A stretch of 64,000 bases of DNA from an uncultured Pirellulaceae bacterium. Lineage in GTDB: Bacteria; Planctomycetota; Planctomycetia; Pirellulales; Pirellulaceae. Shown one piece after another: positions 33,905 to 37,717 of this stretch. Position 1 is the first letter of the stretch. Every line of letters begins with the position of its first letter. Where the stretch lies: assembly GCA_937944405.1 (NCBI GenBank), contig CALDYR010000023.1, positions 1 through 64,000 on the forward strand, given 5' to 3'. Made by a program: the position numbers and the translations under genes. The notes under the pieces were generated by a model. That model had not been told where the DNA came from. It did no database searches and saw only the letters and a list, made by a program, of their open reading frames with translations.

Positions 33905-33930
33905 CCGATCTATAGAGCCGATCTATAGAG
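33905..33930. repeat. 13-bp tandem duplication (CCGATCTATAGAG x2) spanning a stop codon
   Basis: 33905-33917 and 33918-33930; the stop of the cryptochrome-like gene (33923-33925) lies in the second copy. Confidence 0.95.
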
Positions 33931-35417
33931 CCGCCAAAAACGATTCTGCGTTTTTCAAATGTGTATCAAGTTTGGATTGATCCATTTTTTTGGCCATGCT
34001 GCACATCATCGCCCATCGCGGATTTTTTGCCAGCGCATCGCTGTGCCGCCAAATCCAACGCCAATAAAGCCCATCCCAAACCTCGCACCACGGCCCCGGT
34101 TTGTAGTGGCTCATTTTCCTCACATACGACGAACCCGAAAAATATGGCTTGGTCGTAATCAATCCGCCATCGGCATGTTGGCTCATGGAGTATGCGTTAG
34201 GAACCATCACCCAATCGTAGCTATCGATGAACATTTCCATAAACCAGCGATAGATTTCGTCCGGATCAAATTCGCATAGAAACATGAACCCGCCCAACAC
34301 CATCAAACGTTCGATGTGATGGCAGTATCCAGTTTCCAGCACACGTTCAATGGTGTCGTCCAAAGGCAGAATCCCGGTTGTCGCGTCATAAAAAGACTTA
34401 GGAATTTTGCGGCGGTGATTCCAGTGATTGGTCGTCCGCATCGTAACGCCCAAATCTTGATAGGTCGCGCGAATGAACTCTCGCCAGCCGATGATTTGAC
34501 GCACGAATCCTTCGACCGAATTGATCGGCACGTCATGCTTTTCTACAAACGCCATGGTCTCCTTAATGACCTGATTGGGCGTCAGCAAACCGGTATTCAG
34601 CATCGGGGTCAGCACACTGTGCCACAGCCAAGACTCTCCTTGGAGTATCGCGTCTTCGTAGACGCCGAAGTTCTCAAACCGATTTTTCAAAAACTCCACC
34701 AGCCACCGTTGGGCCGCGGCGTGGTCGGTTGGGTAGTACATCGTTTCCGCATTGCCGTAATTGTCGCCAAACCTTTTCAGCACATACTGCCGCGCTTCAC
34801 TGTCGATCGCGTCGGTTTTTACCGAAGGTATGGTGGGGATGTCCCGTAGCAGCGTCTTGGGGATCTTTTTCCGATTGTCATCGTCAAAACTCCACTTGCC
34901 GCCGACCGGTTGGTCGTCCACCATCAACAGATCCAACCGGCGGCGTTGGAATTTGTAAAAATCGGCCATGAACCACCGTTTTTTTCCCTTACGATAATCT
35001 GTGTTCTCGTGCGGGAGATTGATAAACCCAGGACTGTCTAGGTACTCGATCGGCAGCTTTAATTGCTTACAGAATCGGGCAATCCGTTTCTCCAACATGT
35101 AATCGGTTGGTTGTGTCGTTATCAGTTTTTTCGGGGATGACTTGAGACCCTGCTTAATTCTCTTGAGATGACGCAGCAGCGCGTCCTGTTTTGGGTCGTA
35201 GTCCAAATACAGTGTTTCAATTCCTTTTTCGTTCAGGCGATTTTCGAAACGCTTCATCGTTGAACGGTGAAACCATAGCTTTTGCTTGTGGAACGTCGCC
35301 GGGTATTGGCTGTCACCGAAGAAAAGGCTGTCTTCAATTAACACCACGCGCGAAGGACGAAGTTTTAACCCCGGATGATCAGCGAACAACTGATGCGGAA
35401 AAATTAGTAGATTCAAA
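33923..35417 (-). CDS. Cryptochrome/photolyase family protein (PhrB / FeS-BCP-like lineage)
   Basis: LNLLIFPHQLFADH...RVVLIEDSLFFGDSQYPATFHKQKLWFHRSTMKRF; GGKWSFDDDNRKKIP; GWREFIRATY; YCHHIERLMVLGGFMFLCEFDPDEIYRWFMEMFIDSYDWVMVPNAYSMSQHADGGLITTKPYFSGSSYVRKM. Start uncertain; TTG at 35415-35417 gives MNLLIFPHQLF. Confidence 0.85.
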
Positions 35418-35430
35418 TGAGCTCGACTTA

Positions 35431-35442
35431 CGTTATAACGTG
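35431..35442. promoter_or_regulatory. 12-bp perfect palindrome ACGTTATAACGT in the divergent photolyase intergenic region
   Basis: Lies between the proposed TTG start (35417, minus) and the ATG (35481, plus) of the two photolyase-family genes. Confidence 0.5.
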
Positions 35443-35480
35443 ATAGATTTGCGTGAACGAATGAAGGAAAACACAATACG

Positions 35481-36896
35481 ATGAGAAATTTGGTTTGGTT
35501 CCGTCGCGACCTACGTCTCCACGACAATACGGCGCTGTTCAATGCCTGTAAAGACGCAGAAGACGGCGTGGTGGCGGTATACTACCTGACGCCCCAGCAA
35601 TGGAGTTCGCACGACGATGCTTCTTTGAAGGTAAATTTCTGGTTGGAGAATCTGACCCTGCTTTCGAAGGCATTAGAAAAAATCAACATCCCGTTGCTGA
35701 TTGAAACCTGCCATCAATTTTCCGATGTGCCCGAGGCGATGATTGCATTGGCCAAAAAACACCAATGCAACGATATTTTCTTCAACCGAGAATACGAATT
35801 CAACGAACAACGTCGCGACGAATCTGTCCTGCGTGCCGCCGAGAGCCCTAAAATTGGCGTGCACCGATTCCACGATCGCGTCATCGTTCCGCCGCACGAA
35901 ATCAAAACCAAGGAAGACAAATTCTACTCTGTTTTCACTCCCTATCGCAAACAGTGGGACAAAATCGCAGCCGAGTGCGCCACCGTTTTACCGGAACCGA
36001 CGAAACAGAAATCGATTAACATTTCGCCAGACGACATCCCCAAACGCGTCCAAGGATTTCATTTGGAAGGTTTGCCAAACGCGCTCTGGCCTGCCGGGGA
36101 AGTCGAAGCCCATCGGCGTTTGGAAACATTCCTAGAAAAGATCAACGGTTATGGCAACGCGCGCGATATCCCGGCGGTTGATGGTACCAGTCAGCTTTCG
36201 CCGTATTTGGCCGCTGGAGTCATTTCGCCTCGCCAGTGCCTTGTACCTGCGATCGAGGCTAACGGCGGTTGCGTTGGCGGGGACTGCGGTGCCGCGACGT
36301 GGATTTCCGAACTGACGTGGCGTGACTTTTACACACATGTGATGGTCGGGTTTCCGCGCGTTTGCAAAACTCAACCCTTCAAACAACAAACGGAAAAACT
36401 GAAGTGGCGTCGGTCCGAACAAGACTTTGAGGCGTGGAAAGCGGGCCGCACCGGTTATCCGATCGTAGACGCCGGAATGCGGCAGTTAAATGCAACAGGT
36501 TGGATGCACAATCGTTTGCGGATGGTGACTGCGATGTTTCTGACAAAGAATTTGCTGATCGATTGGCGATTGGGAGAACGATACTTCATGGAAAAGCTCG
36601 TCGACGGTGATCTTGCCGCCAATAATGGCGGCTGGCAATGGTCGGCCTCTACGGGCACCGACGCGGTCCCTTACTTTCGCATCTTCAGTCCCTTCAGCCA
36701 AAGTAAACGATTTGATCCCGACGCAATTTTCATCAAAAATCTATGTCCGGAATTAGCTGACGTGCCGGCCAAAGCGATCCACGATCTCGCTAAACTGCCG
36801 ATTGCGTTACGGAATGCAGGTTCGGATTACCCCGGCTATATTGTCGATTACAAATCCAGCCGAGCCCGTGCGTTATCCGCGTTTAAGGCTCTGTGA
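35481..36896 (+). CDS. Deoxyribodipyrimidine photolyase (class I CPD type)
   Basis: RNLVWFRRDLRLHDNTAL; LSPYLAAGVISPRQCL; ELTWRDFYTHVM; GRTGYPIVDAGMRQLNATGWMHNRLRMVTAMFLTKNLLIDWRLGERYFMEKLVDGDLAANNGGWQWSASTGTDA. Confidence 0.95.
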   Translation: MRNLVWFRRDLRLHDNTALFNACKDAEDGVVAVYYLTPQQWSSHDDASLKVNFWLENLTLLSKALEKINIPLLIETCHQFSDVPEAMIALAKKHQCNDIFFNREYEFNEQRRDESVLRAAESPKIGVHRFHDRVIVPPHEIKTKEDKFYSVFTPYRKQWDKIAAECATVLPEPTKQKSINISPDDIPKRVQGFHLEGLPNALWPAGEVEAHRRLETFLEKINGYGNARDIPAVDGTSQLSPYLAAGVISPRQCLVPAIEANGGCVGGDCGAATWISELTWRDFYTHVMVGFPRVCKTQPFKQQTEKLKWRRSEQDFEAWKAGRTGYPIVDAGMRQLNATGWMHNRLRMVTAMFLTKNLLIDWRLGERYFMEKLVDGDLAANNGGWQWSASTGTDAVPYFRIFSPFSQSKRFDPDAIFIKNLCPELADVPAKAIHDLAKLPIALRNAGSDYPGYIVDYKSSRARALSAFKAL

Positions 36897-37054: not shown

Positions 37055-37717
37055 ATGGCGTCTGAAAGCTCAACACGAAGATCAAATGTCCCGCCCATTG
37101 ATTTAGCGGTCCCAGTCAATCTTGAGACCGCGACTTTTGCGTTAGGCTGATTCTGGGGGCCTGACGCCCAGTTTGGGGTCATCAAAGGAATCTACCGGAC
37201 GCGCGTTGGTTACACCGGCGGCAAAAAAGCGAATCCAACCTATCATAGTCTTGGCGGTCACACCGAAGCGATTCAAGTTGACTTCGCACCTCAAGAAATT
37301 ACATTTGATCAGGTTTTGGACATGTTTTGGAAGTCACACAATCCGATCGGCGCCGCTCGGAGCAGCCAATATAAATCTGCCATTTGGTTCGCAAACGAGG
37401 CACAGCGCGAAGCAATCGCAAGTTCTGTCATTCAACTGGAACAGCATTACCAGCGCGATCTTACGACCGAAATTTTACCTCTGACGACATTTTTTAACGC
37501 CGAAGACTATCATCAGAAGTACGTGCTCCAACGCCACGACGCCGTCATGCAACAGTTGAAGTTGGCCTATCCAGATTTTAATGGCCTCGTTGATTCAACC
37601 GCTGCGGCGCGGTTAAACGGTTTTGCTTATGGTGCGGGGCCGAAAAATCTTTTCGAAGCAGAGAAGTTAGAATATGGGGTGGACGAAGATTTACTTGCGC
37701 CGTTGATGAAACGCTGA
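37055..37717 (+). CDS. msrA: Peptide-methionine (S)-S-oxide reductase, candidate selenoprotein with in-frame TGA at 37148-37150 (Sec32)
   Basis: MASESSTRRSNVPPIDLAVPVNLETATFALG-[TGA]-FWGPDAQFGVIKGIYRTRVGYTGGKKANPTYHSLGGHTEAIQVDFAPQEITFDQVLDMFWKSHNP...FFNAEDYHQKYVLQ. One continuous frame from ATG 37055 to TGA 37715-37717 except the TGA at the GCFWG cysteine. Confidence 0.88.
37162..37181 (+). promoter_or_regulatory. Candidate bacterial SECIS element (bSECIS)
   Basis: UGAC-[G bulge]-CCC-AGUUU-GGG-GUCA: 4 bp, 5'-side bulge, 3 bp, 5-nt loop containing GU; apical loop starts 19 nt after the UGA. Confidence 0.6.

Follow-up and report, generated by a model that had tools for sequence, protein, structure and literature searches.

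An open reading frame in an uncultured Pirellulaceae planctomycete, apparently broken by an internal stop codon, almost certainly encodes an intact selenium-containing methionine-repair enzyme, as judged from its sequence. The gene, henceforth referred to as msrA-Sec, is a real gene that annotation missed, and it lies on the forward strand of the window (the whole stretch of DNA analysed, 64,000 nucleotides). With high confidence, it is assigned as a selenocysteine (Sec)-containing peptide-methionine (S)-S-oxide reductase of the Clostridium oremlandii 1-Cys type, in which Sec would be inserted at a UGA codon by way of SelB and a hairpin. The features of the locus are as follows.

37055..37717, forward strand: msrA-Sec coding sequence, 220 residues, with Sec as codon 32 and its own TGA stop at 37715-37717; the same layout is found in nine genus orthologues
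37148..37150, forward strand: UGA read as Sec32, the predicted catalytic residue of GUFWG
37055..37534, forward strand: catalytic region with the predicted active-site residues Sec32, Phe33, Trp34, Tyr63, Glu71, Gln105, Tyr106, His153 and Tyr156, placed by a gapless alignment
37535..37714, forward strand: predicted C-terminal helical domain, residues 161-220, with a profile match up to residue 203 of 4LWJ/7C13
37162..37181 (+12 to +31), forward strand: candidate bSECIS hairpin UGAC(G)CCCA-GUU-UGGGGUCA, -8.5 kcal/mol alone

A single in-frame TGA at the catalytic codon

From the ATG at 37055 to the TGA stop at 37715-37717, the frame is interrupted only by the TGA at 37148-37150 (codon 32), and reading of the sequence confirmed this claim of the earlier note. 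In the predicted product the Sec32 context is ETATFALG-U-FWGPDAQFG, which places the TGA on the catalytic residue of GCFWG as previously claimed, and a count over all 220 residues likewise agreed with the claim that the protein contains zero Cys. The ORF caller output for the locus is indeed limited to TTG 37316..37717. The read-through product matched PF01625 in a profile search with 142 bits (2e-41, cut-off 23.7) and the NCBIfam msrA model TIGR00401 with 132.5 bits against a cut-off of 108.1, and both matches span the TGA. These scores bear out the earlier description of the remainder of the protein as MsrA-like; reduction of methionine-S-sulfoxide is its predicted activity. The placement of the TGA is more than chance, since the one TGA in 220 codons falls on the catalytic codon and recurs there in orthologues.

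Relationship to the selenoprotein MsrA of C. oremlandii

The closest solved structures are those of the selenoprotein MsrA of Clostridium/Alkaliphilus oremlandii OhILAs (CoMsrA; PDB 4LWJ, 4LWK, 4LWL, 4LWM, 4U66 and 7C13), with an E-value of 4e-49 using the single sequence and 5e-70 using a nine-sequence profile. CoMsrA and the msrA-Sec product both have Sec at the GUFWG position, both lack Cys throughout, and they align without gaps over residues 23-193. The active site of CoMsrA comprises Cys/Sec16, Tyr47, Glu55, Gln89, Tyr90, His137 and Tyr140 (PMC4333827). At an offset of 16, the active-site residues listed above are CoMsrA residues 16, 17, 18, 47, 55, 89, 90, 137 and 140, and the UGA aligns with catalytic residue 16. 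The helical domain of CoMsrA is formed by residues 145-209 of 4LWJ/7C13, of which the profile alignment covers 145-203, pointing to an equivalent domain in msrA-Sec. Without this domain, the activity of CoMsrA is nearly abolished (PMC4333827). CoMsrA natively contains Sec and no Cys, its activity is about 20 times that of its Cys form, and it is reduced by glutaredoxin, not thioredoxin, with a possible passage through a dimer (PMC4479559). MsrA, with the motif GUFWG/H, is among the experimentally known prokaryotic selenoproteins (2026 review, PMC13188914).

Canonical Cys MsrA (PF01625/TIGR00401; E. coli 1FF3, bovine 1FVA) shares the catalytic fold and the GxFW motif with msrA-Sec but has Cys in place of Sec, usually a resolving Cys, a longer loop before QYRS and no C-terminal helical domain. 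In the tree, canonical Cys MsrA is a clade separate from the Sec-MsrA family. The protein is not a canonical MsrA with Sec swapped in; the match is to the Cys-free CoMsrA type with its helical domain. The predicted product combines the sequence features of the C. oremlandii type, namely UGA at G-U-F-W, no resolving Cys (1-Cys type), the helical domain and the active-site residues. By sequence it joins the established, crystallised CoMsrA family, and the family, mechanism and structure are already known. The earlier note had likened the protein to known Sec-containing MsrAs free of a resolving Cys; that such a kind is established holds, while the relative is corrected to the C. oremlandii type with a C-terminal helical domain. 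The host differs from that of CoMsrA, being a planctomycete here. Planctomycete selenoproteins have been reported earlier, and MsrA is absent from the main text of that report (PMC4807772).

Conservation of the UGA codon and selection downstream

Orthologues are carried by 9 of 28 genus genomes (source included), at 41-69% identity, and in every one the sole in-frame TGA occupies this codon; T25-A-T-F28 and G31-U-F-W-G-P36 are invariant in all nine. Profile searching across the class (398 genomes) added six genomes outside the genus, all with TGA. The catalytic column was then readable in 95 homologue loci (genus and class loci plus genome-collection loci, with some genes counted twice via different collections), where the codon is TGA in 91, TGC in 3, TGT in 1 and no other. 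The loci represent 90 distinct DNA segments, 86 with TGA and 4 with Cys. Cys was included in one of the two DNA patterns of the genome-collection search, so the sampling, if anything, tilts toward Cys forms. The hosts belong to Planctomycetota, Desulfobacterota, Bacillota, Chloroflexota, Nitrospirota, Actinomycetota, Synergistota and others.

Alternation between Cys and Sec codons at this column, which the earlier note had proposed looking for in homologues, is seen in the wider family. The four Cys forms (L129, L128, L150 and L148) sit among Sec forms in the tree and need three changes, with deep branches poorly supported, and they are probable Sec-to-Cys changes. Among their genomes, tRNA-Sec is present in two and none is shown in two. 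L129 retains a strong hairpin after its TGC, in a genome still containing tRNA-Sec. L148 (PUNG01000071.1) is on a contig labelled as a Thermoplasmata archaeon, a label that may reflect misbinning or transfer. Within the genus, one divergent copy (L028, genome G008; 41% identity) has a signal-peptide-like N-terminus and does not group with the remaining genus copies in the tree; its product is possibly exported.

Over the 188 codons after the UGA, pS was 0.73-0.89 (near saturation) versus a pN of 0.18-0.35 in seven genus pairs. With pS near saturation and pN low, the sequence behind the apparent stop is under protein-level constraint.

These data bear on two other explanations of the locus. A nonsense mutation or sequencing error may have broken an ordinary Cys msrA, as TGC or TGT is one base apart from TGA and the assembly is a MAG. 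This is very improbable, given that the same TGA occurs in independent assemblies of other species across that range of protein identity with downstream selection kept, that 91 of the 95 homologue loci have TGA and none TAA or TAG, and that the protein fits the selenoprotein subfamily and not the canonical Cys MsrAs. Less likely again is a start downstream at TTG 37316, yielding a truncated MsrA-like protein with another function. The mechanical ORF list does give this frame, but its product would have neither the GUFWG motif nor the central strands of the fold, and the N-terminal part upstream of it includes the two segments invariant in the nine orthologues.

Selenocysteine machinery

The earlier note had named the absence of selB, selC or selD as grounds for rejecting a selenoprotein, and a search of the source MAG (3.95 Mb, 161 contigs, 93% complete) found all of them. 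tRNA-Sec was detected with an Rfam score of 66 bits and an ARAGORN anticodon of TCA (UCA), together with selA (580 bits), selB (344 bits, with the SelB winged-helix domain) and selD (254 bits), all on different contigs. The gene set by which bacterial selenoprotein synthesis is recognised (SelA, SelB, SelD and tRNA-Sec) is thus present in the MAG. The selD protein (L018:1387-3594, minus strand) has 735 residues, with SelD fused behind a Pyr_redox_2 (pyridine nucleotide-disulphide oxidoreductase) domain.

A second UGA selenoprotein gene of the VPGUxxT thioredoxin-like type 2 was identified in the same genome (L169; G000:C133:26914-27777). It scored 325 bits against NF041383 (cut-off 275) and has one in-frame TGA, and the ORF caller splits the gene. 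Type 2 proteins have a thioredoxin-like N-terminus with Sec in the VPGUxxT motif, whereas msrA-Sec has Sec in the MsrA active site; the similarity between the two is weak (32 bits) and runs via an MsrA-like segment. Of the 28 genus genomes, 24 have a tRNA-Sec that exceeds the gathering score. It was not found above the cut-off in G021 and G027, both of which have a UGA msrA, probably owing to incomplete genomes.

A variant code in which UGA is generally sense, so that UGA 32 would be read as, for example, Trp, has a negligible probability: a lone read-through TGA cannot by itself exclude recoding, but UGA terminates both msrA-Sec and the adjoining photolyase gene in the window, a dedicated tRNA-Sec (UCA) is present with SelA, SelB and SelD, and where the column does not hold UGA it codes for Cys, the catalytic residue.

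Candidate bSECIS hairpin

The GUU loop of the candidate hairpin (37171-37173) starts at +21 after the UGA, with 20 nt between them. The bSECIS model specifies a loop of 3-9 nt, an upper stem of 4-16 bp, a G within the first two loop positions, a distance of 16-37 nt from the UGA and an MFE at or below -7.5 (PMC13188914). The candidate conforms to this model with its GUU loop, 4 bp plus 4 bp past the bulge and -8.5 kcal/mol for the 20-mer, with other folds competing in longer context. In a longer stretch of RNA from the window sequence, from the TGA to +39, several folds compete and the hairpin has a pair probability of about 0.2, and the stability of the 56-nt fold is not unusual (z = -1.0). 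From the nine genus sequences RNAalifold chose another fold, weakly supported and lacking two-sided changes, which was not adopted; the case for the hairpin is built on the larger sequence set and codon-level controls.

Comparison of the 86 distinct TGA sequences showed that the C-G pairs +17/+27, +18/+26 and +19/+25 are almost invariant and that G21-U22-U23 is conserved. The base at +20 is either A or G, within a CAG or CGG codon, and +24 falls on the silent third position of a Phe codon. The loop-closing pair +20/+24 is A-T in 26, G-C in 44, A-C in 16 and G-T in 0 (Fisher 2e-11, relatedness ignored), and a control Phe codon at +3, directly after the UGA, has no link to +20 (p = 0.23, relatedness ignored). 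TTT accounts for 38% of the other Phe codons in the G20 genes (relatedness ignored), so the zero G-T pairs are not explained by G+C bias. Covariation of the loop-closing pair via an otherwise silent Phe codon is evidence for a candidate SECIS core shared family-wide. This common core is restricted to the upper stem, since conservation across the family does not extend to the lower pairs (+12 to +15 with +28 to +31). The +20/+24 pair is formed in 0 of 4 Cys homologues; the L129 stem is strong but its loop is wider. The selenoprotein MsrA reading put forward in the earlier note is supported by the Sec machinery, the UGA conservation, this SECIS-like hairpin and the purifying selection downstream.

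Proposed mechanism and reductant

By analogy with CoMsrA, we infer that Sec is inserted in vivo, how the reaction proceeds and what the helical domain does in msrA-Sec; for the Sec32 insertion step, the decoding gene set and the hairpin also serve as grounds. SelB and Sec-tRNA-Sec would recognise the hairpin just past the UGA at 37148-37150 and place Sec at position 32. Attack by Sec32 on the sulfoxide group of methionine-S-sulfoxide would then yield methionine together with a selenenic acid. Lacking a resolving Cys, the protein would depend on an external thiol for reduction of the selenenic acid, or on transient formation of a diselenide dimer, as is reported of CoMsrA. Keeping the active site together would be the role of the C-terminal helical domain.

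A full-length Cys MsrA was not found in the 93% complete MAG, and Sec-MsrA is the only full-length MsrA of the assembly; the genome has two MsrB genes. Glutaredoxin recycles CoMsrA, whereas a true glutaredoxin was not found in this 93% complete MAG. The sole PF00462 match was rejected as a glutaredoxin because it is a Thioredoxin_9 protein (75 bits versus 23). If the MAG is complete for MsrA and glutaredoxin, the enzyme would use another reductant than CoMsrA does. We tentatively raise the possibility, which we consider rather unlikely at present, that this planctomycete has no full-length MsrA other than the Sec enzyme, and that a different reductant, a thioredoxin-like protein that may itself be a selenoprotein, recycles it in place of glutaredoxin.

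Neighbourhood and significance

Two divergent genes lie just upstream of msrA in the window (33923-36896), with the photolyase-related protein DPRP encoded on the minus strand and a DNA photolyase on the plus strand. Among the genus members checked, this order next to msrA is shared by the closest species (L021/L081) and by none of the others. A functional link of msrA to the photolyase genes was therefore rejected, and no operon is claimed.

Ordinary annotation truncates or omits this gene, and the Sec reading of msrA-Sec puts that right. As a new member in an uncultured Pirellulaceae planctomycete, it is useful, well supported and unsurprising to selenoprotein specialists. In the loci sampled, the Sec-MsrA type with a helical domain, whose characterised member comes from a single clostridium, is a mostly UGA-encoded family over many phyla. 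The absent glutaredoxin raises a testable question about the recycling of a Cys-free MsrA in planctomycetes. If the Sec enzyme is indeed the sole MsrA and its recycling is glutaredoxin-free, all methionine-S-sulfoxide repair would depend on selenium.
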